Assembly: GCA_008501825.1 (NCBI GenBank)
Contig: QQUA01000016.1
Span: 62,001 to 126,000, forward strand
Reading direction: 5' to 3'
Length of the DNA: 64,000 nucleotides
DNA from: Planctomycetota bacterium
GTDB taxonomy: Bacteria > Planctomycetota > UBA1135
The notes beneath the pieces were generated by a model. It was not told the origin of the DNA. It searched no databases and worked only from the letters and a program-made list of their open reading frames with translations. A program made the position numbers and the translations under genes. Of this stretch, positions 13,550 through 44,045 are shown one piece after another. Position 1 is the stretch's first letter, and each line of letters opens with the position of its first letter.

Positions 13550-13559
13550 GGAGGAAATC

Positions 13560-25721: not shown

Positions 25722-27569
25722 TTAGGGGTTTGAGGTGGCCTCCGCCTCCTCCTCGTCTCCCCCACCATCTTCGCCATCCGGCTCAGTAAGGAAAAATGGT
25801 TTGACTTGGTAAGCCGTAGACAAGCCTTGGAATGAAAGTTCCTCCCTCAGCTTATTGGAAGCGGCGGTGCGGCCATAGGACTGGGCAATGGTCAACTCGC
25901 TCGGCCAGATTTTTTCCTTATCCACCGGGCGCCGGCTTTCCAGACGAACCACCAACCAACTTTGACTTTGCGGATGTTGGAAGGGCCCCAGGATTTGGCC
26001 ATCTTCCAAGTCCCCCAAGTTCTGCCCAACCTGTCCGCGCAAGAATGGAATCACTTGTTGATCGGTGGAAAATTTCGGATCCGCAGGGCGAGGGCGGCGA
26101 CCGATCCAGTCGACCAAATTCAAGCTTTGCTCCGCTTGCGTGGCTTGCTCTTGGAAAGCTTCCATTTCCAGGACCACGGGATCCTCTTCGGCAGCTCCTT
26201 CCTCTCGAGGCAAACCGTCAACGAAAGCTTCGGCGCCTTCTTCCGCCAGTTCGGCCTGACGTTTCTCACGCCAATAATCCACCACCGAATCCCGGACCTC
26301 AGCCAATTCCGGAAGGGTGCGTTCCTGAATCTGTTTCGGCCGCACCAAATAGGCCAGATCTTCACCAAGGATGGGTAAGGTCAACCATTCATCGACAGTA
26401 CCCCGGACAACCTGTTCTAAGCGAGGGCTGCCAAGCCGCGGGAAGTCCTGAAGTTGAGACAAAACGACCATTTCCTCGGCCAGAATTCGTTCCAAACCCC
26501 GCTCATCGGCGAAAGCTTGAAGGTCTTCCACTCCATCCAACTCCTCCGCCAAACTTTCCATCAGTTGATAAAGGCGGTAATCCCTGGCAAGACGCTCTTC
26601 ACCAATCTGCTCCCGGCTCATCGGACTTCCATCTTCCTGCCGGTAGGAAGTAAATCGCTGAATTCGGAAAAAGCCATCCAAATCGTCTTCGGTCGGCTCC
26701 AATTCAGGAGCCCAACTTTGCACAGCTTCGGTTTCCAAAGCTTCGGCGCTTAAAGCCAAGGCTTCGAAGCTGGCGGCTTCCTCGTTCTCCAGATCCCTTC
26801 TCTGCTGAGGACTTAAACCTTCATCGAAGAAAGTCTGCAATTCCTCTTCACTGGGTTCCAAAGCAGCGGCAGCATCGACAAAATCTTCGCCCTTCCACTG
26901 TAGATAGTGGAATCGGATTTCTTCGTTCTCTTCCGCCCAAGCTTCCAAAGCTTGTTGGGTGGTACTGACGGCAGAGGAAGCCAACAATTCCCGGACCACT
27001 TCTACCCGCAAGCATTCTCGCAACAGGCGCTCATAGCCGGTCCGGCTGCGTTGCCGCAAGCGAGCCAAGTATTCGTCGTAGGTGGTCACTCGCATGAACT
27101 GCATTTGCAATTGGATTTGCTGCCGAATGCGTTCATCGGTGATGCCGATTTCGAGCTCATCGGCCAATTCCCGGAGTACGGCATAACTCAGGATGGATTC
27201 CTCATTCAGCTCCCGGTCGGCCAATCCACTGAATAAAACCGTAGATTCCACCGAAGCCCAATTTCGAGCCGTCAGCCAATCCTCGCCGGAAATCGTGACC
27301 TCATCACCATCGGGCACCACCATGGTGGCTTGATCCTGAGGGCCGGCTCCAACCAGACTGGCGAAAGCGGACATCATGGGCCCGGTGACCGAAAAGATCA
27401 CCAGACAGAAGATGGCGACTCCGATTAACAGGATTCGCTTGCGCTTACCCATCTTGGCGGAGGGTTGAGAGGAAGCGCCCTCGGGTTCAGGCGCGGTGGC
27501 CCGAGCCGGTTTGTGCTGATGCGAGGGCTTTTTCTTGGCTTTACTACTCATGGCGGCAGTGCCTGGCAA
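25722..27569 (-). CDS. PpiD/SurA-like membrane-anchored peptidyl-prolyl isomerase/chaperone
   Basis: N-terminal TM (KRKRILLIGVAIFCLVIFSV), helical SurA_N-like region, FLRGQVGQNLGDLEDGQILGPFQHPQSQSWLVVRLESRRP rotamase-like end. Confidence 0.7.
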   Translation of the reverse strand: MPGTAAMSSKAKKKPSHQHKPARATAPEPEGASSQPSAKMGKRKRILLIGVAIFCLVIFSVTGPMMSAFASLVGAGPQDQATMVVPDGDEVTISGEDWLTARNWASVESTVLFSGLADRELNEESILSYAVLRELADELEIGITDERIRQQIQLQMQFMRVTTYDEYLARLRQRSRTGYERLLRECLRVEVVRELLASSAVSTTQQALEAWAEENEEIRFHYLQWKGEDFVDAAAALEPSEEELQTFFDEGLSPQQRRDLENEEAASFEALALSAEALETEAVQSWAPELEPTEDDLDGFFRIQRFTSYRQEDGSPMSREQIGEERLARDYRLYQLMESLAEELDGVEDLQAFADERGLERILAEEMVVLSQLQDFPRLGSPRLEQVVRGTVDEWLTLPILGEDLAYLVRPKQIQERTLPELAEVRDSVVDYWREKRQAELAEEGAEAFVDGLPREEGAAEEDPVVLEMEAFQEQATQAEQSLNLVDWIGRRPRPADPKFSTDQQVIPFLRGQVGQNLGDLEDGQILGPFQHPQSQSWLVVRLESRRPVDKEKIWPSELTIAQSYGRTAASNKLREELSFQGLSTAYQVKPFFLTEPDGEDGGGDEEEAEATSNP

Positions 27570-27624: not shown

Positions 27625-28401
27625 CTAGCTTTGGTTCGAAGGGGACGGACCGGGAGAAGGGGCAGCTTCCCGGTGGTCCTTGGATTCGACGGCTTCGGCC
27701 GGTTCCAGATCGGCCTGTTCCGGGCTTGTGGAGGCAGGGGTCTGAAGTCCGTCTTTCGGCGAATTCCCCTTGGTATCCCCAGTTTTCTTCCCCGGCGGCG
27801 GAGCCTCCGCGGGAAAAGCCAGCCGGCCGGCTTCCGGAAGATCTTTCAAATCGCGGAGACCGAACTGGTTCAAAAACTCTTTGGTGGTGCCGTACAGAAA
27901 CGGCCTTCCCGGCAGATCCGCCCGCCCGAGGATGCGAATGAACCGAAGGTCCAAAAGATGGCGCAGATGGGCGGAACTATTGGCGCCGCGAATGGCGTCC
28001 ATGTCCGCTTTCAGCACCGGCTGCCGGTAAGCCACCAGAGCCAGGACTTCCATGCCCGCCGGACCCAATCGATCCTGGGGAATCTTCCGCCGTACCGGCT
28101 CGAGGGCCTCGGCCACGTCGTCGCTGGTCAACAGCCGCCAACCGGAACCAAGCTTCTTCAAGCTAAGGGGAAGATTGCGCGCTTCGATCCATTCCGCCAA
28201 GGCTTCCAAGTGTTGGCGAGGGCTGGCCGATTCATCCGCGGTGGATCCGGCCGCCTGAGATTCCCCTTCCTTGGGAGAGCCGGCCTTGGTCCCTCGTTTT
28301 TGATCCGCGGGATAGAGGACCTCCCGGATCCGGTCCAGGCCAACCGCCTCTGGAGAGGCGAACAAGAGGGCAAACAGGACCCGAAGCTTCTCCTCGGGAA
28401 T
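27625..28401 (-). CDS. scpB: Segregation and condensation protein B (start codon uncertain)
   Basis: LRVLFALLFASPEAVGLDRIREVL, GPAGMEVLALVAYRQPVLKADMDAIRGANSS, RADLPGRPFLYGTTKEFLNQFGL; the track ORF runs to 28659 but overlaps the upstream gene. Confidence 0.88.
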   Translation of the reverse strand: MPEEKLRVLFALLFASPEAVGLDRIREVLYPADQKRGTKAGSPKEGESQAAGSTADESASPRQHLEALAEWIEARNLPLSLKKLGSGWRLLTSDDVAEALEPVRRKIPQDRLGPAGMEVLALVAYRQPVLKADMDAIRGANSSAHLRHLLDLRFIRILGRADLPGRPFLYGTTKEFLNQFGLRDLKDLPEAGRLAFPAEAPPPGKKTGDTKGNSPKDGLQTPASTSPEQADLEPAEAVESKDHREAAPSPGPSPSNQS

Positions 28402-28408
28402 TCGAGAC

Positions 28409-29347
28409 TTATTCAGGTTTCGGGACGACAAAGGCCTGTGCCGGCGGAAGAAGACTGGGAAGCCGTTCTTGGGCAGTATAGCGGCGAACCATCTCCTCAA
28501 ACCAGGTCCTGGCTTCCAAGGGAGTGATCGCCTGGCGGCGAAGTTGCTCCAGCAACACCACGGCAGGAGCCGGCCGGTTTTCCGGCGGCAGCCGGCTCTC
28601 CAAGCGCACCACCCGCCAAAGTTGGTCGCCTTCGAATTGAAACGGCCCGACCACGGCACCGGCTTTGGCCGACTTCAGTTTCGAGCGCAAGGGTTCGGGA
28701 AGGTAGACCGCCACCGGAGGGAAACTGGAATCGCCCTTGGGCCCAGGGTCCATGGATTCTCGAGCCAACATGCGCGGATCGGCGCCCTTGCGCAAGCGCC
28801 GAGCCCATTGCTCCGCCTGCTGAGGATCCGCTCCGATCAGCATGTGGAATTGGTATCGGCCGGCGGCCATGGCGTCCGCCCGCAACACGATCTGATAGAG
28901 CTGGTTGTCGCCTAAATGACGCCTCAGCACCGCTTCGACCTGAGACCAATTGCGACCGTATCGCCCTTGGGCCCAATCTTCCAATTCTTGATCCTCGGCC
29001 AAGCCTGCTCGGATGCCGTTCACCGATTGAGCCACGGCAGTGTCCAACTCATCGGGATCCACTTGATAACCCATCCGCTCCGCTTCCAAGCGGGCGAATT
29101 CACCACGCAATAGGCTCCGCACCATGGCCCGACTTTCGTCGGGAAACATAAAGACGGTCTCGGCGGTAAAAGCCCGAGCATCCATGGCCCGACCATCCAA
29201 CATGATTTCGGACAAAAGCGCCGGATGCCCGCGCCAAGGGAAAGCCACCTCGGTTCGGGAGGATGGCCCGCCACAGGCCAGAGCCCCAAGGGCCAAAGCC
29301 AATGCCAGCGGAACCGGCTTGCCGGACCAGCAGGAAGTCACCACCAA
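28409..29347 (-). CDS. Parvulin-like peptidyl-prolyl isomerase lipoprotein
   Basis: Lipobox-like ALGALACGG; PGPKGDSSFPPVAVYLPEPLRSKLKSAKAGAVVGPFQFEGDQLWRVVRLESR. Confidence 0.7.
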   Translation of the reverse strand: MVVTSCWSGKPVPLALALALGALACGGPSSRTEVAFPWRGHPALLSEIMLDGRAMDARAFTAETVFMFPDESRAMVRSLLRGEFARLEAERMGYQVDPDELDTAVAQSVNGIRAGLAEDQELEDWAQGRYGRNWSQVEAVLRRHLGDNQLYQIVLRADAMAAGRYQFHMLIGADPQQAEQWARRLRKGADPRMLARESMDPGPKGDSSFPPVAVYLPEPLRSKLKSAKAGAVVGPFQFEGDQLWRVVRLESRLPPENRPAPAVVLLEQLRRQAITPLEARTWFEEMVRRYTAQERLPSLLPPAQAFVVPKPE

Positions 29348-29350
29348 TCG

Positions 29351-30883
29351 CTAGTAGAAGTACACCGCCCGCCGTTTGCTCACGCCTTGGCAGGTTGGAC
29401 ATTTGTGGCGCTTTTCTTTGGCCCCTTCGGCACCGACTTCGGTGACCCGAATCACTCCGGTTCCACCGCAGGTGATGCAGTTATCAAACCGCGCCCGGTG
29501 CAATTTGTAGTCACCGGAAAATTCGGCGTAGTAGGCCAGCAGGAATTGAAAGCGCTCCGTGGCGGTGGCTTTACGCCACCAGTCTTCCGGCGAATATTCT
29601 TCATCTCCAGAAGCTTTGCGGCGTGCACGATCGAGGTTTTCCAAATACCTGCGAGTCCGTTCTTCCAGCTCCCGTTGTTCCGGAGACTTGCCGTCATCGA
29701 TTTGTTCTTCTTCCACCTCCAAGCCGGCCAAGGCCTTGTCTTCACCCAAGATCCAGGTGCCGTCGCCATAGGTGGCTTGAAGGCGCCGAGGAGTATGCTG
29801 GAAACGATTTCCCCATAAGGAGTCCAACTCTTCAGGAGAAACGTCGTCTTTCATGGATTTCAAATCATCCAATAGTTTTTCCCGAACTTTGCTGGGAGCT
29901 TCCGTTTCCGCCCAGCTCATCAAGCTGTCCATGGTGACGTTGGACTCATAAGACTTGCGCTTGACCACCCCGACTACCCGCTTGAACCATTGACTGACCA
30001 AGTGGCGTTCCATGGCCGCCTTGCGCTCTTCTTCGAAACGGTCCTGCAACTCCAAGAATTCTCCGCGCAAACCGGCTTGCGGGAATTGGCCTTCGAAGGC
30101 ATCCAATTTCTCCAAAGCGGTGGTGAAGCGACCTCGGTGCATCAACTGGCGGATCTCGGTCAAGGCCGCCGCCTCTTCCCGATGGGCCATGGTCTGTTCC
30201 AACTCGTCCAAGGCGACCTCAACCCGACTCGCCAAGGCTTGATCCCCTTCGGCTTCTGCGGCTTCCGACGCCGCCTGGAGGTGTTGTTGCGCCTGTTCCA
30301 AGGCATAGACACTGCGCAATTCTTGGGCGAATTCATAATGCCGCAAACCGGAATCCAAATTTACTTCCAGCAGGCGCTCGTCGTAGAACTGCTCCGGGGT
30401 CAAAATTTGATCGGCGGGCACCACCACCGGTTCCGGAGGAGCCGCCAGCATCCTTAAAGCCACCTTGGTGGTGTTCTCCCGAATTCTCAGTTCAAGAAAC
30501 TGGGCGTCCTTGCGCAACACACGCCCGACCAATTGGCCGCCGTTTTTCAGCATCAGCAAGTCGGCGGTCACCGTCGGGATGCCGCTTTGCTGGCGATAAC
30601 CGAAACTGGTTTTCAGGCGCTGCCCTTCACCGGGAAACAAGTCGTTCCAACTCAAGGCGTAGCGACCTCCGTGACGGCTGGAAACCAATACCAAGCCGTC
30701 CAGATCGTGTTCCACGATGTTTCCGACCAACAAGCGGCCGTCGCGGAGGCGAACGATTTCGTTCTCCCCAGGAAGATCTTGAGCCGCACTCCAGGGAGCG
30801 GCCGCGGCCAGAACCGTAAACAACAGGAGGAGGAGGGATCGCATGGCTTTCTTGCTTGACATGGCGGGAGACAGCCGGCTCAT
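29351..30883 (-). CDS. Secreted protein with C-terminal DnaJ-type CxxCxG zinc motif
   Basis: Signal peptide; C-terminus CITCGGTGVI...HKCPTCQG. Confidence 0.65.
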   Translation of the reverse strand: MSRLSPAMSSKKAMRSLLLLLFTVLAAAAPWSAAQDLPGENEIVRLRDGRLLVGNIVEHDLDGLVLVSSRHGGRYALSWNDLFPGEGQRLKTSFGYRQQSGIPTVTADLLMLKNGGQLVGRVLRKDAQFLELRIRENTTKVALRMLAAPPEPVVVPADQILTPEQFYDERLLEVNLDSGLRHYEFAQELRSVYALEQAQQHLQAASEAAEAEGDQALASRVEVALDELEQTMAHREEAAALTEIRQLMHRGRFTTALEKLDAFEGQFPQAGLRGEFLELQDRFEEERKAAMERHLVSQWFKRVVGVVKRKSYESNVTMDSLMSWAETEAPSKVREKLLDDLKSMKDDVSPEELDSLWGNRFQHTPRRLQATYGDGTWILGEDKALAGLEVEEEQIDDGKSPEQRELEERTRRYLENLDRARRKASGDEEYSPEDWWRKATATERFQFLLAYYAEFSGDYKLHRARFDNCITCGGTGVIRVTEVGAEGAKEKRHKCPTCQGVSKRRAVYFY

Positions 30884-31290
30884 GAGTCTAAACGGCGACT
30901 CATGGGCACCTGTTTGGCTAAAAGAAAACTGAGCCGCGCCACCGGCCGCTCAGGATTGGAGCGATAAAAGCGCAGGCGTGCCCGGGGCAGGCCATCGGCT
31001 CTCTTGGGGTTTTCCACGATCAAGTCGTATTTGTAGTCCGGGGCTCCTGGCACCGGTTGGGCCAGGAATTCCTGCAACCGGGTGGTGCCGCCTCCGGAAT
31101 CCAGCATCCAAGCTTCGTCGAGAAGCTTTTGCACCAGGGGTTCGACGTGTGGGGCCAATTCGGCATGGGCCCGGGCGGTGTTTTCCATGCCACCGCCAAA
31201 CTGAAACAAACCTAGGAGAGCCGTGACCCCGACCAGGAACAAGCCCATGGCCAGGAGCACTTCAATCAAGGAAAAACCGGACCGGTTCAT
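30880..31290 (-). CDS. Prepilin-type pseudopilin (GspI-like)
   Basis: MNRSGFSLIEVLLAMGLFLVGVTALLGLF prepilin signal; start at 31290 inside longer track ORF. Confidence 0.8.
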   Translation of the reverse strand: MNRSGFSLIEVLLAMGLFLVGVTALLGLFQFGGGMENTARAHAELAPHVEPLVQKLLDEAWMLDSGGGTTRLQEFLAQPVPGAPDYKYDLIVENPKRADGLPRARLRFYRSNPERPVARLSFLLAKQVPMSRRLDS

Positions 31291-32210
31291 GGAGCCCACC
31301 TCCTTCCTTCGGCCACCACCCAAGCTTCTCCAGCATAGCTCTTGGGAAGCAAAACCGGCGCCCGAGCGGGGTGAGCTTCGAAACTGGTATCCCTCAGCCC
31401 GCGCTCGGCAATGGACAAAGTCGGCGGGGTTCCGCTGACCCGCATCCATTCTTTCTCCACCAAGGCGAATTCCGGAATCTTGAAGGGGAGTTGTCCGCGC
31501 AAACGCATGCGGTTGCCCGCAGCCTCTAAATCTTCGTCCAAGCGTGGAGGTCGATTGCGGGCCGATCCCGCCACCCGTTCCAGGCGTAGGCGAACCTTGG
31601 CCGGCAGGTCGCGGACCGGATCGGGAGGAATTTTCCATTCCTCATGCCACTGCCCTTGGCTATCCAGAGCCGCGAATTCGGCCCAAGCCACTCCGTCTAA
31701 AACCACTAGACCGGCACCCTCTCGAGCCCTTCGTTCCACCAAGCGATCGCTGCTTAGAAAAGACTCGGACGGATTCTCCAATTGAGTCAGGCGCATCAAG
31801 CGGCAAAGCCGGCTGTTGGCAGGATCCTCCGGCACCAGCATCCAGACGATTTCCACGGCGTGTCGAGCTTCCGGATCTTGATCCAGGGCCGCCCCGCCGT
31901 GGGCCAAAAAACGCATTCGGGGCAGATACCAAGCTTGTTGCGCTTCGCCGGCGGGAACCGCCTCCCAGAAATCGACTTCAAATCGGCCGCGAGCTCCGTT
32001 GTGCAAAGCCCGCAAATCGGTACGCAACTTCTGCAAGGTCGAACTGAACACCAAATCGCCATGGCCACGGCGTTCCCCGTTCTGCCACAAGCCCATGACC
32101 GAATTCAAAATACCGGCGACGAACAGTCCGAGCATGGCGAATAGACCGAGAGCCAACAACACCTCGATGAGGGTCATGCCGGAGCGGTTATTACGACCAG
32201 CGGTTTTCAT
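31287..32210 (-). CDS. Prepilin-type pseudopilin (GspJ-like)
   Basis: RSGMTLIEVLLALGLFAMLGLFVAGIL; 4-bp overlaps with both neighbours. Confidence 0.8.
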   Translation of the reverse strand: MKTAGRNNRSGMTLIEVLLALGLFAMLGLFVAGILNSVMGLWQNGERRGHGDLVFSSTLQKLRTDLRALHNGARGRFEVDFWEAVPAGEAQQAWYLPRMRFLAHGGAALDQDPEARHAVEIVWMLVPEDPANSRLCRLMRLTQLENPSESFLSSDRLVERRAREGAGLVVLDGVAWAEFAALDSQGQWHEEWKIPPDPVRDLPAKVRLRLERVAGSARNRPPRLDEDLEAAGNRMRLRGQLPFKIPEFALVEKEWMRVSGTPPTLSIAERGLRDTSFEAHPARAPVLLPKSYAGEAWVVAEGRRWAP

Positions 32211-35200
32211 TCCACCACCTCGGCCCAGCGTTGAATCCGGGGTTCGGCCAGATAGTCAATCATCAGGTTGCGAAAGCGAGGAGCGGTGGTCCAGCCGAGA
32301 GAACTGAAATTGACCGGATCGAAAGCCCCGACGTCCCAATCGAAACTAATTCGAAGATCCAATCGATCGGAAGCCAAATCCAGCGGATGGAGTCCCCCAC
32401 CCTGGGCTTTGCCTTCTTCCAACAACACCACTCCCGGAGTTCCGGGAACGTCTTCAAAACTGGCTTGGCCGCTACGCAACCACAGCCGGACTTTATGAGA
32501 AGCATCGGGTAATTCCGCTTCGTATTGAAGGCCCCGCCAATAAGCCTGGGGTTCGTCCAGCCCGATTTGCAGCCAGGCGGCTGCCGGACTGCTACTCGCT
32601 GCGACGTAACGGTCCTGCCAGCGGCAGGGAAAACTGTAGACCAAAGTGCCTTGGCCGTGATCGGCGGCCACGGTGCCGAATCGGCCTCGCAAAATGCCGT
32701 CGCCGCGATCTTCCTCTTCACCCGGCAGACTCCGGTGGCGCGGCATCATCAGTTCTTGGTTCTGCCCTTTGTGACTGGTGTGAATCAACTCCTGATCGAT
32801 CAACAAGAGGCTTTCCGGCGGGAACGGGGATCCATCCTCGACGATCAAAGTCGCTTCGCCTGGAGTCACGTTGTTGGTCAAGACCGAAACCGGCCGGCCA
32901 TCGACCACGTACACATGAGCGCCTTGGGCATGACCGCGGGCTTCCGTTCCGTGCAAGCCGCGACCTCCCGGAGCAATTTCAATCTCTCCGGTTCCGGGAT
33001 TGAAGCCGCTGTATGCGATGCGCTCGCCATCGATATCCAGCAATCCGCTTTCGGGGAAGTTCGCGAACCAGCCTCCGGCTTGGGTGGAAAGGCGGCGCCG
33101 GCCGTCCAAAACCAAAGCGTATTGATGCAGGAAAATAGAACGAGGTTCGGTGGCTTCCAAATCCTGATCCAACATCCAAGCTCCACGAGCCAAAGCATTG
33201 TTGGCCGGCCCCATTCCGGCCACCGTATGCAAACTAACCTCGTCAACCATGCCGTTGAAGGAAGTCCCGCCGGAAACGCTGCCGCCGACGTTAAGAGTAT
33301 CCAAACGGACCGGCCGTTCCCCGCTGGGAAACTTCACCAGTCGTTCCATGGTTCGGATGTCGGTGTTCGGAGCGTTCAAGTTCTGACCGCCGACCCAACC
33401 CAAAAATGGCAAACCCGGGTCTTCATAAAAGGCCACGTAAAAACGGCCGTTCTCGGTTCTCGGACTGAGACGGCTGGGCTTGGCCCATTGCACCGTGAAC
33501 CAGTTCGGCGGCAAACTTCCTTGAGGTTGCATCACCGCCACACGATCCTTGCGGCCGACGAATCCGGTGGAGGAATCCAAATTGCGTAAGGTCTTGAACA
33601 CCGGCACCAAGCGAGTTCCGCTTTGCTGGGCGTGATCATAAGTTCCCATGACTCCTCGGAAACCGTAAGCCCGGCGAATGGTTTCGATGGTGTCGGGCCG
33701 GTCGTCCACCGGCTCGCCGATGGTCCGGGCAAACACGAAAGCATCTTCCGTTTCCTGCAATAGCGGCGGGGTGAGGGCATACAAACCGCCACCGGCCCGG
33801 CCTCCAGGCCGGCCGCCGGAACCAATGTTGCCGCCACCGGGATTGCCGCCGTCTCCAGGGCCGCCAGGCTCTTCTGGCACGTCGGCTCGAACTTCACTCA
33901 GATAGGCACTGACTGCATTCTGAAGAGCGCCCCAATCATCGCGCACGAACATTCCGTTGATGATGCTGTCATAGCGCACCCATTCGGTTAAGCCGGCATC
34001 GGCGTCCGAAGTCAGTTGCACGAACTGGGAAAAGTTGTCGTCTCCAGGAAGATAAGTGACGTCACTGATCCCCGATCCTTTCACTGAAATCGGAATGATG
34101 TAGACGTAACTGTCGGGTAATTCCTGCAAGGGAGTATCGTCGCGATAGACGAAACTTTCCCACTCGGTGACGAAGGATCGAGCTTCACTATAAGCCCAAT
34201 CGGGAGGCCCGTCTTCGCCGCTCAACAGCGGCAACTGAATGTTCCTTTGAATTAGATTCAAGGTGGTTCCGGAGCGGGATGAATACTCGACCACTTCCAT
34301 ACCGGAAATCAAACAATTGTCGCCGGTACGCAAACCGTCCCGACCCCAATACACCCACTGCACCATGAGGGCGTAACCGCCGTTTTCCTGGAAAGCCTCG
34401 GCGTAATAAGGATCGCCTTCCGCTTGCGGGATCGGCCCGAGCTCAATCTCACCGAGATAGCCACAGGTGATGCCCATGCCGATTTGGAAACTGCGACCGC
34501 TGAGCGGGCTGACGATTTCAATCGGATCCTGGCCGTTGACGACTTGGGCCAAAGACCAAGGGCCGACGTTGCCGGTTAAACGACCGCCGCCGATAGGAAT
34601 CCCATCCTCGTCGATGATCGCACTGTAACCGTAAAGCTCCACCCCGGAACCGGCGGGGTGGTAGGTATCCAGAGAGTTCACCGCTACGTCCGAATCTTCC
34701 CGGGCGGCGCGGCCGCCCAAATACCCGTCCGGACCAGCAATCCGTTGAGTGATGAAAGTGTTTGCGGTTTTCGACGAATACTCGATGACTTCTTGTCCCA
34801 CCCGCAAAACGCCGCGGTTGGGAAAGCCCTCGGTGGATTCCACCACCAGGACGTCGTCGGGAGAACCGGCGGCGTAAGCGCTCAAGGGCGCCGTCAACTC
34901 GGTGTATCCAAGGACTTCACCCCGGGGAACGCCGTCCACCGCCACCTGAAAACCCCGAGCGGAAATCCCGCGGAGCAAAGTGGAAAGATGGAACCATCGA
35001 TCTTCCAAATCGTATTCCGCCGGATCCACCCGCACTTCCAGGGCTTCTTCCAAATTGTCTTCGTCAAAGGGATCCTGGCCGGCGTTGTCATAGGCTCGAA
35101 TGACCAAGCGCCCTTGTTCGATGGCGGCGAATACCCGCTCTTTGTCCACCTCCGGACCGCTTAAGTCGAATAAAAAGCCGTCCTGCAAGCCGTCGTGCAA

Positions 35201-37198
35201 GCGATACCAAGCTTGGTAATGCAAGGGCTCGTTGGAACTGTACACCCCCTGGGTAGAAGATGCAGCGGTCACGATGTTCCAATCGAACAGCGGGGTTTGC
35301 CACGAGCCCCGTTCGGCAACGTCGTAACCCAAAGGACTGGCTTCAAAATCAAAATGCTCGGTGCGGCCTAAAGTCCCTTGCACGAAGTTGTCCAATTCCC
35401 GAGCCGGAATCGGAATCACCGAAGACTCTTCCGTTTCCTTGGAAGCGACCTGAAGGCCGGTGGTATCCACCGTTCCGGCGCGAAGACTCAAACCATTGGG
35501 GTGATCGTGCTGCCCTCCCAAGCTACCGACGTTGCGAGGCAGGGTGGTGACCCCTTGGGCCCCGCGGCCATAGCGCACCGCATCTTCGAAGTTTTCTTGA
35601 TGGTGCCATAGCTGCAACAAAGGACCGTCCGGCGCCACCCGAAGGTCTTGAACCACCGAAGCTCGGGACCGGGTTCGTCCTAGAGGAGAACGCACCGCGG
35701 CGTTGACCCGTTGCAGATAACGATTGCCGCTGGCGTAACCGAAGGGAACCGTGCTTTGAGCCAAGCTGCCGTGATTGGGATCCAGGCTGTTCAGATAAAT
35801 CAACCACGCTTCCAGATCCGAAAGCGTGCCGTCGTCCATCATCGGCCTTAAAACCCGGATCCAAAGATCTTCCGGACCTTGCAAAGGCCGCTGTTCCACG
35901 ATGGCCGAAGCTACGTCCCGAGCTTGCCGGGGGTGAATCCAACTGGACGAAAAGCGTCCTTGAATCGGTTGTCGGGTAAAGATGGGAGGTCCGGTGCGCC
36001 AACGCAAACCGGTCAGCATGGCTTCCAGGATTTCCAATCGGCAGGCGTTGACGTCCACCGGTTCCCGCAACAAAGGATGCACCCTGGTTTCCAGGATCGG
36101 GAAATTCGGCAACATGGTGAACACCGAAAGCCGGCCGGATTTCGCCAAGGCTCCCCGGCCCATGTCGCGATTGCCGGGGTTGCTGGCGAACACCATGGCA
36201 TAAAGCGGATTCTCCTGATCGACGTCAAAACAAAGAATGGTGCCGGGAGAAGCCACCAAACCGTCGGAAACCGGGGCTCGCCAGGCTCGATCCGGATCGA
36301 TGGGACGATCGATCAACACCGCCGGTCCCCAAGCGTCGCCGCCGTAGGTCCCGACGTCGAACCAGCAAAGGTCTTGCAGATAGCGACGATCCTCTTCCGC
36401 TAACAAATCTCCACCCAGAACCGCCTGATCCAATAAGTCGGACAACACCTCCGGAGGCCGGTATTCACCGTCGGGAATCCTGGCCAAAGCCAAGTTGTAA
36501 ACCCGGCGATCGATCACCGCCAAACCTTGAGGCAACTCTTGCCCGTCGGCTCCGGGAAGGATCAATCCGGTAAAGGCATTGGCGGTCTTCCCGGTGTATT
36601 GAATGAAGATCTCGGGAAAGCCGCCGTCGGTGGGAATGCTGTATCCCATAATCCGCAAGAATCCCTGGTCGGGAAAACCGGCGGTGGAAGTCACCGGCAA
36701 TTCTTCCGCCGGCAAGGCCACGTCCTCCCGCAAATAACAGGGATGCAACAAGTTTTGCAATAGAAGCGGCGGCGCGCTTCCCAGCGAAACCCGGGCTTGG
36801 GCGTTTTCTACCTCCACTCCCCAGGATTGAGCGATGTTCTTCCAATCCTCGCCGAGGGCTTGAGGCAAAGGACCCAGGGTAGTGGGATCCCATTCCTCCG
36901 GACCGTCGTATCGAGGGCTCGGATCCATCGCCGGATGGGATCCGGCCTGATGAAAAATGGAAGCCTGGGTGGCGGACTGAACCGCCACTTGCACTGCAGC
37001 TTGGTCGAAGGCTTCCTGAGACGCCTCCGAACGCAACCGGCTGGTCAACAGAAACGGTACGCCCAGGGAAAACAACAACGCAACGGCCAGCAGCACCACC
37101 AACAGCGCGGAACCGTTTTCGGCCAGGGAGCGGGAAAGGGTGGACAAAGCCGGGCGCTCCGAGGGAGCCGGCGTGAGTGGGCGCAGCTTGGATTTCAA
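32207..37198 (-). CDS. Giant GspK-like protein (1663 aa) with LamG-like and internal beta-repeat segments
   Basis: N-terminal NGSALLVVLLAVALLFSLGVPFLLTSRLRSEAS GspK-type anchor; location among minor pseudopilins; GMVDEVSLH and WFHLSTLLRG LamG-like segments. Confidence 0.7.
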   Translation of the reverse strand: MKSKLRPLTPAPSERPALSTLSRSLAENGSALLVVLLAVALLFSLGVPFLLTSRLRSEASQEAFDQAAVQVAVQSATQASIFHQAGSHPAMDPSPRYDGPEEWDPTTLGPLPQALGEDWKNIAQSWGVEVENAQARVSLGSAPPLLLQNLLHPCYLREDVALPAEELPVTSTAGFPDQGFLRIMGYSIPTDGGFPEIFIQYTGKTANAFTGLILPGADGQELPQGLAVIDRRVYNLALARIPDGEYRPPEVLSDLLDQAVLGGDLLAEEDRRYLQDLCWFDVGTYGGDAWGPAVLIDRPIDPDRAWRAPVSDGLVASPGTILCFDVDQENPLYAMVFASNPGNRDMGRGALAKSGRLSVFTMLPNFPILETRVHPLLREPVDVNACRLEILEAMLTGLRWRTGPPIFTRQPIQGRFSSSWIHPRQARDVASAIVEQRPLQGPEDLWIRVLRPMMDDGTLSDLEAWLIYLNSLDPNHGSLAQSTVPFGYASGNRYLQRVNAAVRSPLGRTRSRASVVQDLRVAPDGPLLQLWHHQENFEDAVRYGRGAQGVTTLPRNVGSLGGQHDHPNGLSLRAGTVDTTGLQVASKETEESSVIPIPARELDNFVQGTLGRTEHFDFEASPLGYDVAERGSWQTPLFDWNIVTAASSTQGVYSSNEPLHYQAWYRLHDGLQDGFLFDLSGPEVDKERVFAAIEQGRLVIRAYDNAGQDPFDEDNLEEALEVRVDPAEYDLEDRWFHLSTLLRGISARGFQVAVDGVPRGEVLGYTELTAPLSAYAAGSPDDVLVVESTEGFPNRGVLRVGQEVIEYSSKTANTFITQRIAGPDGYLGGRAAREDSDVAVNSLDTYHPAGSGVELYGYSAIIDEDGIPIGGGRLTGNVGPWSLAQVVNGQDPIEIVSPLSGRSFQIGMGITCGYLGEIELGPIPQAEGDPYYAEAFQENGGYALMVQWVYWGRDGLRTGDNCLISGMEVVEYSSRSGTTLNLIQRNIQLPLLSGEDGPPDWAYSEARSFVTEWESFVYRDDTPLQELPDSYVYIIPISVKGSGISDVTYLPGDDNFSQFVQLTSDADAGLTEWVRYDSIINGMFVRDDWGALQNAVSAYLSEVRADVPEEPGGPGDGGNPGGGNIGSGGRPGGRAGGGLYALTPPLLQETEDAFVFARTIGEPVDDRPDTIETIRRAYGFRGVMGTYDHAQQSGTRLVPVFKTLRNLDSSTGFVGRKDRVAVMQPQGSLPPNWFTVQWAKPSRLSPRTENGRFYVAFYEDPGLPFLGWVGGQNLNAPNTDIRTMERLVKFPSGERPVRLDTLNVGGSVSGGTSFNGMVDEVSLHTVAGMGPANNALARGAWMLDQDLEATEPRSIFLHQYALVLDGRRRLSTQAGGWFANFPESGLLDIDGERIAYSGFNPGTGEIEIAPGGRGLHGTEARGHAQGAHVYVVDGRPVSVLTNNVTPGEATLIVEDGSPFPPESLLLIDQELIHTSHKGQNQELMMPRHRSLPGEEEDRGDGILRGRFGTVAADHGQGTLVYSFPCRWQDRYVAASSSPAAAWLQIGLDEPQAYWRGLQYEAELPDASHKVRLWLRSGQASFEDVPGTPGVVLLEEGKAQGGGLHPLDLASDRLDLRISFDWDVGAFDPVNFSSLGWTTAPRFRNLMIDYLAEPRIQRWAEVVE

Positions 37199-38223
37199 GG
37201 ACCGTCCTCCGATTCGCGAGCGTATTCTTCAGCGAACCGCCCGATGGTGAAGGAAGTCACGACTTCCCCGTTTTCCAGAATCTCTACCGGAATAGGAGCC
37301 GGATGCCTTTGGGTATCCAACATCCCAAAGCGGTCAAACCAAATTTGGAAGGGCTGGACGTCCACCAGCAATTCCTCCTGTAAAGGAGGACCGGGTTCCC
37401 GGGTCCGGCCCCAAAGAACCAGCTCATCGATTCGGCCGCGAAAGCGACCTTCAGGATCACCCAGTTCCAAAAAGCCTTTGGGTTCAGCCAAAGGGCCTTC
37501 GTAGGCGGCTTCGGCCACGGCTCGGCCGTTTACCCAGATTTGCAAGCGACCGGCTGCGGCCCGGAAACGAAAGTGCTGCCATCTCTCCGGCAGCAACACC
37601 GCCGCCGGACTGTCCAGAAGCAAACTGGTTGCGTCTTGGTCCTGCCCTAAATGGAGCCTTAAGCGAACGCTGCCGTCTTGCCGCCGGCTCAATTCCAAAA
37701 AGTCTTCCCAACGGGCCAATTGGCAGGCCACTCCATCTCGGCTGTAAAGATGGACTTCCATGTCCACCCCGTATGGAGTGCGAATCTGCCCGCCGCGGCC
37801 TTCCACCACCACGGTCCCGCCATCGCTCAAGTCCAAGGCTTCGCCGAAGCGGCCGGCACCGCCCAACTCCGCTGGAGGAATCAATTGCAAACCCTGCCGG
37901 CGTTGACTCTCCTGCTCGAAAGTCGCTTCCAAGATCGGTCGATAGACGAACCGTGAAAAACCGCCGGGATCGGAAAAGTCTTCATTGGGAAGACTCAATT
38001 CCAGCATCACCGGGTGCCCGCTGGCTCGAGCCCGATCCCGGCTGCTTTCCAAAAAAGCCAACAAGGTGTCCTGAAATCCCCGGGCACCGGGGTCCATGCG
38101 CTGAATCGCCAAGCCGCCGACCCCCAACAGAATGCCGATCAGCACCATGACCAGCAACAGTTCCACGAAAGTGAATCCGGCGGGATTCACCCTTCGCCAA
38201 GCATTGCAGGAACCGGTTTTCAA
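37195..38223 (-). CDS. GspH-like pseudopilin fused to concanavalin/LamG-like domain
   Basis: NPAGFTFVELLLVMVLIGILLGVGGLAI prepilin signal; WQHFRFRAAAGRLQIWVNGRAVAEAAY...FRGRIDELVLWGR LamG signature. Confidence 0.8.
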   Translation of the reverse strand: MKTGSCNAWRRVNPAGFTFVELLLVMVLIGILLGVGGLAIQRMDPGARGFQDTLLAFLESSRDRARASGHPVMLELSLPNEDFSDPGGFSRFVYRPILEATFEQESQRRQGLQLIPPAELGGAGRFGEALDLSDGGTVVVEGRGGQIRTPYGVDMEVHLYSRDGVACQLARWEDFLELSRRQDGSVRLRLHLGQDQDATSLLLDSPAAVLLPERWQHFRFRAAAGRLQIWVNGRAVAEAAYEGPLAEPKGFLELGDPEGRFRGRIDELVLWGRTREPGPPLQEELLVDVQPFQIWFDRFGMLDTQRHPAPIPVEILENGEVVTSFTIGRFAEEYARESEDGP

Positions 38224-38286: not shown

Positions 38287-38904
38287 TCAGGATCCTTGGA
38301 AGTGAGTCAAGTCGTCTTCGGTTCCGAACAAGCCATCTTCACCCGCCGAAATCAATTGGTAAGCGTCGGGTTCTTGCCAATTCCCGGTCCGCTCGTGGCG
38401 TTGGGCCTTGGCTTGTTGTTCTTCCCAAACTTCATCGATCCCCGCTTGCACGGTATGAGTCTCGTCATAGTGCAGGGATTCCATGTAAAGAATGGGATTG
38501 CCCCAGGCATCGCCGAACTCGAACAGTTCCTTACTGCCTAGGGAGCTGGTGGCTTTTTGACTGAAATCCTGATCGGTGTTCACCAACCAATCTTGCTTCG
38601 GACGAGTCCCGGTCATGCGCTCATCGAACAAGGCCACCACCAGAGCTTCACAAGGGGCATTGACGCCGTTGGAATTCAAACCTCGGGGAAGGCGGTCGTT
38701 GGGAAACTCCCCCATTTGCTGGCGGTATTGCAACACTAAGTTGGACAGCTCCAGCAAACGAGTTTTGGTTTTCTTTTCCGAAGCCTTGCCGAAGAGATCT
38801 CCACCGGTCACCAGGAAGAAACTCATCAGGATGGCGATGATGAAAAGGACCACCAAGATTTCGAGCAAGGTGAATCCGGAACCGGGACGGCGGACTTGCA
38901 TCAT
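38287..38904 (-). CDS. GspG-like major pseudopilin
   Basis: GSGFTLLEILVVLFIIAILMSFFLVTGGDLFGKASEKKTKTRLLELSNLVLQYRQQMGEFP; FGDAWGNPILY. Confidence 0.82.
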   Translation of the reverse strand: MMQVRRPGSGFTLLEILVVLFIIAILMSFFLVTGGDLFGKASEKKTKTRLLELSNLVLQYRQQMGEFPNDRLPRGLNSNGVNAPCEALVVALFDERMTGTRPKQDWLVNTDQDFSQKATSSLGSKELFEFGDAWGNPILYMESLHYDETHTVQAGIDEVWEEQQAKAQRHERTGNWQEPDAYQLISAGEDGLFGTEDDLTHFQGS

Positions 38905-41579
38905 GGTTGCGCGAACACCAATTCAACCCGCTCGACGGCGACGTCTACCGCAACGGCTTGGCGGGTTCTGGCAAAAGCCCCCATGGTCAATTCCCCGGAG
39001 GCGGTTTTCAAAACGGTCACCTTGTCTTGGAACAACTGGCGACCGTTCGCGGTCACGGTCAAAACCGGCGGTTCCTGCTCACGGTCCAAATCAAACTGAA
39101 CCGAAAGCGGCGTGCCGGCCGCGACCCGAAGAGAACTTCGCTCGTGACCGATCTCGCGAGCGGATTGCCTGGATTGCCACCAAACGGCTCCATCTCGATC
39201 CCGATAAACGTGGAAGAACCAAGTGGCTCGCCCGGCCCGGTTCTCCAGCGAAAGGTACAAACCGGCGTCACCGCGATGATCGCTGCCGGCGGAGATTTCG
39301 CCATGGAAAGCCTGGAAGGTCAAAGCCCTCTGGCGCCGGAAAACCCGGGTTTCCCCTTCCTCCCGATGACGCCCGAGGATTTGCAATCGACCGTTTCGAA
39401 TCGCCGGCTCCACCCCAAGCCTGGCTTGACTTTGGGGATCCCATTCCGGGCGGAACAAGGTGCCTTCAAATTCGTCGGTCCAAAGACGCAGTTTGTCATG
39501 ACCGGCCACCCGGTCCGACCAAAGTTGGGCGTAGGCGTATTGAGTATGGGTCGGCTCCGCCCGCAACATGTCCATCAACTCGCCGAATTCGGCGATGCAA
39601 GTGTCCAGGTCTCCTTCCCGGTAAGCGGCCCAGGCCAAGGCATTGCGAGCTTCATGCAAATCCGGCTGCAAAGCCAGCGCGTCCCGCAACGAAGCTCGGG
39701 CGTCTTCGACCCTTTGTAGGCTCAGAAGATTGATGCCGCGGCGCAGCGCCAATTCGGGAATTTGCGGCGCTTCGACGATGGCTCGGCGCAAAGCAACTTC
39801 GGCCCGATCCAAACGACCTTCGCCGTGCAACAGCCATCCCAATTCGGCCAGAGCGGCGGCGCAACGAGGCCATCCTCCAATCAGGTACCGGAGATCGGTC
39901 CGAGCGGTGGCGGTGTTGCCGTCCTGGCGAGCCCGCCGAGCCCGCAGATAACGGGCATAAGGCCACTCCGGATCCAATTCCAAAGCGGCGTTCAAACTTT
40001 CGGAAGCCTGGTCTTCCTGGCCCATGACCTCAAACCAAAACGCCAAAGCGGAAAGAGCCGGAGCCGCATCCAATTTATCCGCCCTGGAAGCTGCCCGAAG
40101 ATCGCGGACGACTTCGGCAGCCGGTTCTCCATTGGCGGCGGCACAGATTCCTCGCAAGTAAAGCAAATTCGGCTGGGCTCCCAAAGCTTCCACCGCTTCC
40201 ACCGAACTTGCGTAGGCCTCGGCGAACCGCCCGGCCAAATAATCGGTGGCGATCAGGCCGGCCCGGGCTTCAACTTCCGACAGGGCTCCGCTTTGAGCCG
40301 CATTCAAGGCGTCTTGAAAGGCCCGTTTCGCTTCCGGCCATTGTCCTTGTTGCAAATGAGCCTGGCCTAAAGCCACGAAGTTGCGAATCGCTTCGGGGTG
40401 ATTGCGAGAACTCTGAAAACCGGAAGCCTTGCGCAGCCAAGGAAGCGCTTCTTCGGCCAGCCCTTGTTGCAGCAACAACAAACCCAGTTCCAGAGGAGCG
40501 GCCGGATCGGAGTCGGGCAAATCAGCGGCTTCCCGCAAAATGTTCTCGGCCGGTTCTTCCAGTTGGAAAATTCGCAGAACCCGGGCCATGCCCACTCGTG
40601 GAGCGCCTCGAGTGGCGAATTTTCCGGCAGGCACTTCCACCGGCAGTTGGGGGCGGATTTCCCCGGACGGCAAATCAACGCCGGCCAAGCCGGCATACAA
40701 GGCAAAGGCCTGATCGTAGCGGAAGGTCCGTTCCCAAACGCTTCCCAAACTCAACCAGCTCTTTAAATCTTCCCCGGCCAAGCGGATCCCTTCCAAAGCC
40801 AATTGTTCGGCGTGTTGGAAAGCGACCGGTTCGCGAACGCCTTGATCCAACAACCAGCGAATCAACTGGCGCCGATCCAAAACCGCTCCGGCACTGGGGT
40901 CCAGCGCCCGAACCCGCAACTCGATGTCGTTGCGCAAAGTTTTGGCAAAACTAAAGCCGGTGTATTGATCGCCTTCGAAAACTACCGGTTGTCCCCGGTC
41001 GGTTCCGGTTCGAGGATCGACTTGTTGAAAGGTCAGGGGTTCGCCGGGCCGTTTGTCCCAGCGATCCTCGTCCAAAATCCGACCCCACAAGACCAGGAAA
41101 GTGGTTCGCTGAATGGAGTCGTACAAATTGGCGTAATCTTCATCGCCGTCTTGAGCATCGCCATCCTCCAAGGCCTCGCCGCCGTTTTCTTCCACCGCTC
41201 CTTGGTCCAAGGCGTCCATTTCCACCAAATCTTCCAAATCTCCAGGAGGAGCCTTGGGATGAGCCAGCAAATTCCGACTCCAATAATCGGGACCGCTGTC
41301 GGGCAACGGCGGCGGCAGCAACGCCGGAAGGACCGAAAGGTCGGGAAAGGGAAGTTCCAAGGCCGGAAGCGGCACCACGTCGCGAGGTTGGCGGAACGGA
41401 TCCCGACCTCCCCCATCCGCGGCTAAATCATGAACCGGGTCGACCGGCCCTAAATCGGCCAATTCCAGCGGCAATTGAGTGACTCGCGATTTCCGAATCG
41501 GATCCGGATTCAATTTTGACCAAATCAAAAGCGCCAAAATAGCGGCGACGCCGATGAGCAGGATTTGTTCGCGCTTCAC
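38901..41579 (-). CDS. Membrane-anchored TPR protein with C-terminal concanavalin-like domain
   Basis: N-terminal TM; multiple TPR-like repeats (ALELDPEWPYARYLRARRARQDGN...); C-terminal beta-rich FRPEWDP...GDAGLYLSLENRAGRATWFFHVYRD. Confidence 0.72.
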   Translation of the reverse strand: MKREQILLIGVAAILALLIWSKLNPDPIRKSRVTQLPLELADLGPVDPVHDLAADGGGRDPFRQPRDVVPLPALELPFPDLSVLPALLPPPLPDSGPDYWSRNLLAHPKAPPGDLEDLVEMDALDQGAVEENGGEALEDGDAQDGDEDYANLYDSIQRTTFLVLWGRILDEDRWDKRPGEPLTFQQVDPRTGTDRGQPVVFEGDQYTGFSFAKTLRNDIELRVRALDPSAGAVLDRRQLIRWLLDQGVREPVAFQHAEQLALEGIRLAGEDLKSWLSLGSVWERTFRYDQAFALYAGLAGVDLPSGEIRPQLPVEVPAGKFATRGAPRVGMARVLRIFQLEEPAENILREAADLPDSDPAAPLELGLLLLQQGLAEEALPWLRKASGFQSSRNHPEAIRNFVALGQAHLQQGQWPEAKRAFQDALNAAQSGALSEVEARAGLIATDYLAGRFAEAYASSVEAVEALGAQPNLLYLRGICAAANGEPAAEVVRDLRAASRADKLDAAPALSALAFWFEVMGQEDQASESLNAALELDPEWPYARYLRARRARQDGNTATARTDLRYLIGGWPRCAAALAELGWLLHGEGRLDRAEVALRRAIVEAPQIPELALRRGINLLSLQRVEDARASLRDALALQPDLHEARNALAWAAYREGDLDTCIAEFGELMDMLRAEPTHTQYAYAQLWSDRVAGHDKLRLWTDEFEGTLFRPEWDPQSQARLGVEPAIRNGRLQILGRHREEGETRVFRRQRALTFQAFHGEISAGSDHRGDAGLYLSLENRAGRATWFFHVYRDRDGAVWWQSRQSAREIGHERSSLRVAAGTPLSVQFDLDREQEPPVLTVTANGRQLFQDKVTVLKTASGELTMGAFARTRQAVAVDVAVERVELVFAQP

Positions 41580-42343
41580 AGCTCTTCCTCCAACTGGGGC
41601 ATGCCGCCGGCGGCCAATTGCACGTAGACTCGCCGAGCTCGTCCTCGTTTATCCGGCGGAGTCACCGAAAGTTGGTCCAACCCCAGAGGCGGTTGGTGTT
41701 GCAGCAAAGCTTGGACGAAAGTGTGCACCTTTTCATCGGGCAGATGCACTTCCAGACTGACTGGAGTCAAATCCAACACCGAATCTCCCAATCCACGAAT
41801 TCGCTTCGGTGCCCGAGTGGAGATTTCCATGTCGTCGACTTTTTCCGCACCCGAGGCCACCGCAAGTCGCACCACCTGTTCGACCACCGCCAAACCGCGC
41901 AATACCTTTTGAATCTTTTGCGGCTCGTTGGGGGAAGTCGGCGGCAGGCCCAAAGATTCATCCACTTCCACGTTTTGACGCAAAGCCCAAGGAATCAAAT
42001 CCTCTCGGACGTCACCGCTCAACTGAATGTAATGCTGGCGCCAAGATTGCCCTTCTTCCGGTTGATAGGCTTCCGGAAGCACCGGCAGGGTTCGGCCGAC
42101 CAAGTTGCCGGCACGGTCGTCCAACTCATTCAAACGCTGCCGCAATTCAGTGACCGAGGAAGATCCGTACCACTTGGAGCTGCGCAGGATTTTGTTTTGG
42201 GATTGAATGCTGCTTTTGCCGCGTTTGTGGCGGCTACCGACGGTGGATCCGAGAATCGCTTCGGCGATGAGAAACAGCACCAAACCGGCCGCGATTCCCA
42301 TCAGGAAGCGGCGGTGAGTTTGCCAGAAGGCGTCGAAGTTCAT
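41576..42343 (-). CDS. GspM/PilO-like inner-membrane assembly protein
   Basis: N-terminal TM, helical region, small alpha/beta end (VSLEVHLPDEKVHTFVQALLQHQPPLGLDQLSV). Confidence 0.55.
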   Translation of the reverse strand: MNFDAFWQTHRRFLMGIAAGLVLFLIAEAILGSTVGSRHKRGKSSIQSQNKILRSSKWYGSSSVTELRQRLNELDDRAGNLVGRTLPVLPEAYQPEEGQSWRQHYIQLSGDVREDLIPWALRQNVEVDESLGLPPTSPNEPQKIQKVLRGLAVVEQVVRLAVASGAEKVDDMEISTRAPKRIRGLGDSVLDLTPVSLEVHLPDEKVHTFVQALLQHQPPLGLDQLSVTPPDKRGRARRVYVQLAAGGMPQLEEEL

Positions 42344-42389: not shown

Positions 42390-44045
42390 CTATTCATCCT
42401 CGTATTCCTCATCGGAATCGGGATCGGCTTGCACCAATAGCTGAGCGGAAATGGACCACTCCAAATCCCGCCCTCGAGGTTTGGCGGTTTCCCGAATGGA
42501 ATCCTCGCCGCGAGGCAGTTGCGATTTCAGGTCGGCGACAAAGCGATTGAACACCGTCCGGGCCGGCCGGGATGCATCTTGGCCACGGCCGCCGACGGTG
42601 ACCACCGGAACGCTGACGCCGGCCAAGCCCCAGTCTTTTCCTTCCTGCAATTCCACGGCGAAGCTTTCTACCCAAAGGTTGTCGGGCAAAGCCGCCAACA
42701 GGGTTTCGTACATTTCCCAAGCACTTTGTTGTAAGGCGCGCCGGGTTTGCAGTTCTTGCACGATGCCGGTTTTGCGTTGCACTTCTTCCAGCAACCCTCG
42801 AGCCTCGGCGTCGGCCTTGCTGGCTTTATCCACCTGAATGCGCAACCGGCGGGCGTCGGCCGCCAAGTCGGTGGCTTGGCTCGAAGTCACGAAGAAGTCG
42901 AAGGCCAGGAAAGCGATGACCAAGGCGGCGGCAATCACGGCGAAAATGCCGCGCTCTTGGAATTCGCGGCGCTTGCGAGCCGCCTTGGGCAGGATTTCCA
43001 AGGCGTAGAGATCGGCATCGGCCGCCGACAAAGCCAACCCCAAGGCCACGGAAGCGGCAGGGCCGTCTTCTTCCAATGGGTCGGCCTGCTCCGGCGGCAA
43101 AGCGGACAGGTCCACCATTTCGACTGGATTCCAGACCGAAACGGGAACCCGCATTCTTTCCTGAAAGAATTCGGTAATGCCCTTGGCCTTGGCCCCGCCA
43201 CCGGTAAGCAAAACTCGATCCAGGCTCAAGTCCTGCAATCGAGCTTGGGCTTTGCAAAGGGTCACCACGCTGCTGAGCAAAGTGGGCAAGGGATCGTAAA
43301 ACGGCAATACCGGCCGAGTCACCCGATCCGGATCGGTTTCCAGGCGCTGGCCGATGCCGCCACGCAGATCCATGTGTTTGTGGATCAAGCTCTGGGCCCG
43401 TTGCGGCGAAACTCCCAAGCGCTGGCCGAGACTGGCATCTCGTTTATCCAAGCCAGTGGTCACCGAACGGGCGAAGTACAAATCGGTGCCGCGGACCAAA
43501 CAGAGATCCAAGGTGGTCGCTCCAACGTTGGCCAGCAAGGTGACGGAGGCTTCATGGTCCCCCAAGGCCAAGTAGGCGTTGTAAAGAGCGATCGCGTTGG
43601 GAGTGAAGCCCTGGACCGGCAGTTTGTCCAATAGGCCCATCCATTCTTCCAACAAATCCTCTCGCACCAAGCCAAGCAGGATGGTGTCGTCTTCATCCAG
43701 TTCCTTGGGAACCGGCAAAAGATTAAAGGAGGTTGCCAGCGGAGAACCGGAACGGGATTCCAATTCTCGAACTTCGAAATCCATCAACCGTTCCAAACGC
43801 CAGTCTTCCACCGGTGGAACCGGCAGATAGCGCATCATCAAATCGGAACCGGTCAAGCCCACCCTGGCCGGCGTCGGCTTTTTGCTTAGGCGCCCAAAAG
43901 CTCCGCCGGCCGCTTCCATCGGCGCTTCGCCACCTTCCACGGTTTCGGAGTAATAGCGCTGCAGGCTGATCTCGCCCTTTTTGTTGCGCAATTGCGCCAG
44001 CCGCACCTTGTGATGGCCGGCATCCAATCCGGTGCCCAAGCTCAT
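42390..44045 (-). CDS. PilM/GspL-like actin-fold protein fused to PilN-like TM domain
   Basis: LGTGLDAGHHKVRLAQL, LLANVGATTLDLCLVRG, DRVLLTGGGAKAKGITEFF; TM segment GIFAVIAAALVIAFLAFDFF then PilN-like periplasmic part. Confidence 0.75.
   Translation of the reverse strand: MSLGTGLDAGHHKVRLAQLRNKKGEISLQRYYSETVEGGEAPMEAAGGAFGRLSKKPTPARVGLTGSDLMMRYLPVPPVEDWRLERLMDFEVRELESRSGSPLATSFNLLPVPKELDEDDTILLGLVREDLLEEWMGLLDKLPVQGFTPNAIALYNAYLALGDHEASVTLLANVGATTLDLCLVRGTDLYFARSVTTGLDKRDASLGQRLGVSPQRAQSLIHKHMDLRGGIGQRLETDPDRVTRPVLPFYDPLPTLLSSVVTLCKAQARLQDLSLDRVLLTGGGAKAKGITEFFQERMRVPVSVWNPVEMVDLSALPPEQADPLEEDGPAASVALGLALSAADADLYALEILPKAARKRREFQERGIFAVIAAALVIAFLAFDFFVTSSQATDLAADARRLRIQVDKASKADAEARGLLEEVQRKTGIVQELQTRRALQQSAWEMYETLLAALPDNLWVESFAVELQEGKDWGLAGVSVPVVTVGGRGQDASRPARTVFNRFVADLKSQLPRGEDSIRETAKPRGRDLEWSISAQLLVQADPDSDEEYEDE

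Follow-up and report, generated by a model that had tools for sequence, protein, structure and literature searches.

Within a 64,000-nucleotide stretch of a planctomycete genome (Planctomycetota bacterium, UBA1135; contig QQUA01000016.1, positions 62,001 to 126,000; hereafter, the window), one gene encodes a GspK-like minor pseudopilin of 1663 aa, which we call giant K (protein P0001). Giant K almost certainly belongs to the GspK superfamily, and it has about 1140 residues added beyond the GspK core. With moderate confidence, we read giant K as a giant modular member of this superfamily that caps a second, specialized filament resembling those of the type II secretion system (T2SS) or type 4 pili (T4P), where it would carry a ligand-binding head. 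In short, the cell probably uses giant K, at the end of a secretion-type filament, to take hold of something. An initial annotation of the window had described the protein as GspK-like and had proposed that it forms an elaborate pseudopilus tip or cargo-recognition head; the first part of that description is supported by our analyses, and the second is something that we infer from them.

Conservation and size of the giant K frame

Giant K is encoded at 32207..37198 on the minus strand (coordinates below are window positions on the minus strand unless otherwise stated) by a single intact frame of 1663 codons with a TTG start and zero internal stops, as the initial annotation had reported. Its identification as a giant GspK-like minor pseudopilin draws on the frame, its relatives, and profile comparison. 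The start shares four bases (TTGA) with the stop of the upstream pseudopilin gene, and the stop shares four bases (ATGA) with the start of the downstream pseudopilin gene. The host genome, 5.7 Mb in size, is assembled in 26 contigs. Because single frames with this same length and architecture are found in 18 genomes of the family and elsewhere in the order, with the finished chromosome CP036296.1 carrying giant K as a 1795-aa frame with an ATG start, the frame is confirmed to be real and is neither a chance frame nor an assembly error.

The giant K gene was present in 58 of 61 genomes (the window genome and the 60 nearest among the genomes searched), and the mature length ranged from 1577 to 1766 residues (median 1699; 61 full-length relatives and P0001). 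The initial annotation had suggested a survey of GspK length across the phylum. In our sample of 119 genomes, 89 (81 of 104 genera) matched the giant K family alignment at E<=1e-4, which is an upper bound, since some match the modules only; the matching frames were mostly 1300 to 2300 aa long. Canonical planctomycete GspKs of about 312 to 570 aa were common in the same sample, in line with the few hundred residues that had been given as typical. Giant K exceeds its known relatives three- to fivefold in size, and within the clade the gene is giant as a rule. This corrects the initial annotation, since the giant form is typical of the gene in most planctomycete lineages and is not confined to the window genome. 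The phylum sample also held a second class of frames longer than 1000 aa, whose matches to the GspK model fall mainly within its first ~105 positions. Because these other long frames with GspK N termini occur in the phylum, giant forms of GspK may have had more than one origin. One such frame (G061:C309, 1516 aa) passes the GspK cut-off, at 130.6 bits with neighbors.

The window genome also has a separate 545-aa GspK beside a secretin, on the same contig and ~74 kb from giant K (C10:19-21 kb; minus strand, 11134-14265 of the stretch C10:8001-28000). Likewise, CP036296.1 has a 568-codon GspK frame and giant K, ~92 kb apart. Because each of these genomes keeps an ordinary GspK, giant K is a second, specialized GspK and not a swollen copy of the sole one. 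The 545-aa GspK has a long acidic insert and is set among housekeeping genes (PNPase, purA, uppS), not in a full T2SS cluster.

GspK homology and architecture

The initial annotation had made its reading depend on homology of the N terminus to GspK by hidden Markov model. P0001 alone found no match among Pfam or NCBIfam models, and PDB sequence searches with P0001 and with its profile returned chance matches only. Among 20 aligned members of the family, the NCBIfam model T2SS_GspK (NF037980) matched 12 (best 6.6e-11, residues 6 to 116 of relative L024), and T2SSK matched five, weakly, at the motif (P)V(D/N)xNxAxxEVL. As a reference for profile-profile comparison, we aligned 17 canonical planctomycete GspKs (A4); this alignment itself retrieves the GspK structures 5VTM (4e-33) and 3CI0 (3e-19). 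With hhalign, the giant K family alignment of the N-terminal 592 mature residues (A2) matched A4 at 97.9% (E 5.8e-13) across the helix and first strand, and the helical region alone matched A4 at 95.1% (E 3.3e-8) on the VNINTAP-EVL motif. These two stretches are separate and collinear with canonical GspK, and in CP036296.1 NF037980 finds both, in order, inside one 1808-codon frame. Two negative controls were built in: the stretches between and after the GspK-matching parts had no match to the canonical GspK profile, and the C-terminal 1064 residues compared with it at 0.1%. The T2SS_GspK matches and the profile comparison together uphold the homology. Verru_Chthon cassette protein A (TIGR02600) is a cassette neighbor of several prepilin-like proteins in Verrucomicrobia; its kinship with giant K was left unproven, given weak matches in 3 of 20 members (best E 0.21).

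The N-terminal anchor noticed in the initial annotation, which is prepilin-like (...AEN/G29-SALLVVLLAVALLFSLGVPFLL), begins with a leader (residues 1 to 28, 37115..37198), and cleavage would be expected after G29, the Gly being invariant in all 62 giant K sequences. The GspK-type alpha-1 helix and first beta strand follow (residues 29 to 150, 36749..37114; model, profile comparison, and alignment). Alpha-1 is predicted to be unbroken (residues 2 to 59 of the AlphaFold model), and the first strand, EVENAQARVSL, is the equivalent of IxDExxKxNLN. The GspK alpha-domain with its helix-hairpin-helix motif (PVDVNACRLEILEAML; residues ~379 to 446, 35861..36064) was located by profile comparison and by the T2SSK match in relatives, and the core would end with the two final beta strands of the pilin sheet (residues ~493 to 520, 35639..35722), placed by position and by the secondary structure of the model. 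None of the 62 sequences has Glu or Asp at mature position +5, where A, V, L, I, T, M, or S stands instead, and the neighboring G, H, I, and J pseudopilins all carry Glu5. Lack of Glu5 and large size mark GspK-type subunits that are placed at the tip (PMC5207764).

The initial annotation had put the addition to GspK at more than 1000 residues, including laminin-G-like (LamG) segments and a Gly/Pro-rich linker, all of which we recovered. Giant K consists, in order, of the GspK core with a module (M1) inserted, a LamG-like domain (LG1), module M2, a beta region with a fifth module copy, the linker, a probable second LamG domain (LG2), modules M3 and M4, and a final beta domain. Structure prediction, which had also been suggested, gave two confident AlphaFold pieces, built from 49-sequence alignments: residues 29 to 620 (predicted local distance difference test [pLDDT] 87.4, predicted template modeling score [pTM] 0.88) and residues 600 to 1663 (pLDDT 87.7, pTM 0.84), the latter disordered only at the linker (about residues 1105 to 1150).

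LG1 (residues 612 to 775, 34874..35365) was identified from the model, from fold matches, and from relatives, in which Laminin_G_3 is recognized by sequence at this position (4e-6 and 2e-4). Compared with PDB folds, the C-terminal model piece matched laminin LG pairs, neurexin LNS domains, and other LamG or jelly-roll folds (25 matches at E<=0.001), and it gave single-domain matches to agrin LG with a probability of 1.00 and a template modeling score of 0.42 to 0.47 on the target. The probable second LamG/jelly-roll domain, LG2 (...FNGMVDEVSLHT; residues 1151 to 1345, 33164..33748), is called on LG-pair fold matches and the strand pattern of the model, because LG1 and LG2 are not recognizably homologous by profile. 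The Gly/Pro-rich linker, identified from the model and alignment, spans residues 1106 to 1148 (33755..33883), with the stretch quoted in the initial annotation at residues ~1109 to 1138, and is 15 to 80 aa long in relatives.

Besides LamG, the extra mass includes phage-baseplate-type modules, which the initial annotation had overlooked. The module GFPxxGxLxIgxExIxY occurs in four to five copies. M1 (GFP..G.L.I..Y; residues 155 to 225, 36524..36736) lies inside the GspK core, M2 (residues 776 to 865, 34604..34873) has the strongest match to phage baseplate and tail families in profile searches, and M3 (residues 1368 to 1446, 32861..33097) and M4 (residues 1447 to 1530, 32609..32860) adjoin each other. 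In profile comparisons, M1 to M4 are mutually homologous (94 to 98%, E 1e-7 to 2e-14). A fifth copy, which is degenerate (residues ~960 to 1012, 34163..34321), was detected within the beta-rich region of residues 866 to 1105 by comparing M1 with this middle region (90.4%, E 1.4e-6). The protein ends in a domain of long beta strands in the model (residues 1531 to 1663, 32210..32608). PHROG 2885 (phage baseplate wedge) was matched by 19 of the 20 members (best 1.6e-12), PHROG 4406 and 708 were also matched, and the C-terminal domain of the gene transfer agent (GTA) tail protein Rcc01698 (PF23666) was matched by eight (best 4e-4); in P0001 itself, the phage-family match falls on M2 (1.3e-7). We rejected a phage or prophage origin of the gene: the modules alone are shared, and the gene lies within a conserved chromosomal operon.

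Operon context and proposed function

Each window gene was searched against 80 related loci. The survey revealed a conserved single-strand order of FHA, PilM-like, PilO-like, TPR, GspG, GspH, giant K, GspJ, GspI, p29351, PPIC rotamase, ScpB, and PPIC rotamase. The gene p29351 was found at 70 loci, G at 61, H at 56, M at 55, and FHA at 51; such counts drop for fast-evolving genes and cut contigs. The block begins with an FHA-domain membrane protein (44042..45946; Pfam and the survey) adjoining PilM, a position that suggests phosphorylation control of the filament. It continues with a PilM-like protein of the Amuc_1101 family with a PilN-like transmembrane (TM) tail (42390..44045), a small PilO/GspM-like membrane protein assigned by position and topology (41576..42343), and a protein with an N-terminal TM segment and TPR repeats (38901..41579). 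Domain scans identified the last of these and the PilM-like protein, and likewise the GspG-like pseudopilin (38287..38904), the GspH-like minor pseudopilin (N_methyl, Glu5; 37195..38223), the GspJ-like minor pseudopilin (Glu5; 31287..32210), and the GspI/PilV-like minor pseudopilin (Glu5; 30880..31290). The GspH-like protein also contains a Laminin_G_3 domain (3e-7), which the six relatives tested retain, two of them with weak matches (E ~0.01), and it is a second lectin-fold modular pilin of the operon.

Downstream, p29351 (29351..30883) is an exported protein with a C-terminal zinc-finger-like motif, CxxCxGxG, that is DnaJ-like; its role may be that of an assembly factor dedicated to the giant K filament. 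Two PPIC-type foldases, a PPIC-type rotamase (28409..29347) and a SurA/PPIC-type rotamase (25722..27569), flank scpB (27625..28659), all three found by domain scan and in the survey. The foldases fit a large beta-rich periplasmic client and might help giant K to fold. Upstream genes for a short-chain fatty acid (SCFA) transporter and an arylsulfotransferase are outside the conserved block. A 336-aa plus-strand frame at window positions 24675-25685, with an N-terminal C-x4-C ... CxxC pattern and no Pfam match, looks by eye like an IS-type transposase.

The conservation of G-H-K-J-I with PilM- and PilO-like genes as an operon argues for assembly, and it is highly probable that giant K is part of an assembled filament. 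Its anatomy (a GspK core, the absence of Glu5, and a gene grouped with those for I and J) fits a tip subunit, and a place at the tip is only slightly less probable. We infer that prepilin peptidase cleaves giant K after G29, and the N-terminal helix would then pack with the products of the adjacent genes, the GspJ-, GspI-, and GspH-like subunits. Because it is without Glu5, giant K should be able to serve only as the first, tip-most subunit. The GspK core would hold up the ~1140-residue head, with its LamG domain(s), phage-baseplate-type beta modules, and flexible linker, and the head, presumably having passed through a secretin, would bind a ligand at or beyond the outer membrane. The chance that the head binds an extracellular ligand is, in our judgment, a little better than even, and a glycan, as polysaccharide or glycoconjugate, would be the likeliest ligand; the head fits ligand binding because LamG is a ConA-like lectin fold and the glycan-binding PilC of Streptococcus sanguinis carries such a module. 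The LamG-bearing GspH beneath giant K could add a further binding site. Filament growth and retraction, driven by an ATPase, platform protein, and secretin encoded elsewhere, would move the ligand or hold the cell to it.

Several observations weigh against this proposal. P0001 scores 10.1 bits, and the best scored relative 42.3, against the NF037980 cut-off of 130 bits. Because these scores are far under the curated cut-off, giant K is not filed as a T2SS GspK equivalog and, judged by sequence, is a divergent family member. A PDB fold search with the N-terminal piece returned short beta-barrel matches, with GspK absent among the best 50, probably since the core is interrupted by M1 and Foldseek had aligned other regions; the GspK core therefore rests on profile comparison and the secondary structure of the model. 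LG2 is without sequence support (LG1 and LG2 compare at 0.2%), and no ligand-binding site was identified in the head, which may also be too large for passage through a secretin. Finally, the Pfam-scanned genes at 25722-48662 include no ATPase, platform protein, or secretin (GspD/E/F); the window genome has six T2SSE and six secretin places elsewhere, and CP036296.1 has no T2SSE match within 350 kb of giant K.

Giant K could instead stay in the periplasm as the cargo-recognition head of a true T2SS pseudopilus, with its LamG and beta modules binding large folded exoproteins (e.g., carbohydrate-active enzymes) and pushing them through the secretin. The pseudopilins G-H-I-J-K are of T2SS type, the size of giant K favors staying inside, and in published models a bulky GspK stalls at the secretin (PMC5207764). 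We nevertheless consider this unlikely, because an ordinary T2SS needs no giant when the window genome and the finished relative each keep a GspK of ~550 aa, and because LamG on GspH too suggests repeated glycan contact and not protein cargo. Still less probable is an envelope-anchored adhesin or scaffold that borrows the GspK anchor outside any filament, the other pseudopilins also being short membrane-anchored parts. Pilin-like proteins can stay membrane-held without polymerizing, which together with the lack of assembly genes among those scanned agrees with such an arrangement, but the full G-H-K-J-I set is conserved together with PilM- and PilO-like genes, pointing to assembly. An artifact (two-gene fusion, misassembled contig of a metagenome-assembled genome, or chance open frame), to which the 26 contigs and the many long overlapping frames of the window might point, has practically no probability and was rejected, since dozens of independent genomes, the finished chromosome included, share this length and module order.

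If giant K does cap a second filament, a T2SS-type tip subunit can carry a head several times its own size, as a stable, widely conserved feature of the phylum and no accident. Dextran-binding fibers and the uptake of macromolecules into an enlarged periplasm have been described in planctomycetes, with the mechanism left open (PMC5394234). Hypothetically, giant K might be linked to these fibers, which were described in other planctomycete species. In the boldest version, which we regard as improbable, a planctomycete-wide second filament system with a giant GspK-type tip as a multivalent polysaccharide-gripping head would be the machine behind the fibers and uptake, its growth and retraction drawing macromolecules to or into the enlarged periplasm. 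Giant K is in any case a concrete candidate gene for planctomycete contact with polysaccharides or particles, an open question in the cell biology of the phylum.

Comparison with known systems

We found no open-licence paper that connects a giant GspK with planctomycetes, or laminin G with a pseudopilin. Compared with GspK/XcpX (NF037980; PF03934/PF21687; 3CI0, 5VTM), giant K shares the prepilin anchor without Glu5, the motif of the first beta strand, the helix-hairpin-helix alpha-domain inserted in the pilin sheet, and the G, H, I, and J genes encoded alongside. It differs in its size (1663 aa versus ~310 to 570), in the beta module inside the core and the ~1140 residues behind it, in scoring far under the curated cut-off, and in that the E, F, and D genes are not adjacent.

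Modular pilins, of which giant K is a giant GspK-like variant, are already known. They are a recognized strategy in a published survey that counts GspK as modular, lists LamG (PF13385) among the common modules, and names a most extreme case of 860 residues (PMC8179133). Giant K likewise combines a pilin module with domains not specific to type 4 filaments, namely LamG and the phage-type modules, and extends the modular-pilin idea in GspK to a size beyond that case. The PilC pilin of S. sanguinis has a ConA-like lectin module and binds glycans, and modeling places it at the tip (PMC9934059). Giant K resembles PilB and PilC of that species (PMC8179133, PMC9934059) in having a pilin module that carries an unrelated functional module, but its carrier is GspK-like and is without the IPR012902/N_methyl motif (P0001 has no Pfam match), and it has about seven extra modules. 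The initiator minor pilins CofB and TcpB (PMC5207764) are similarly large, present in very few copies per filament, located at the tip, and equipped with beta-rich C-terminal domains, but they carry Glu5 and are ~4 times smaller than giant K. Lastly, giant K shares the GFPxxGxLxIgxExIxY beta module with phage baseplate wedge and tail proteins (PHROG 2885, 708, 4406, and 1101) and with Rcc01698 (PF23666), a connection between the phage baseplate and the tips of bacterial filaments; unlike those proteins, giant K has no other phage-like content and uses the module as repeats in a pilin-type protein.

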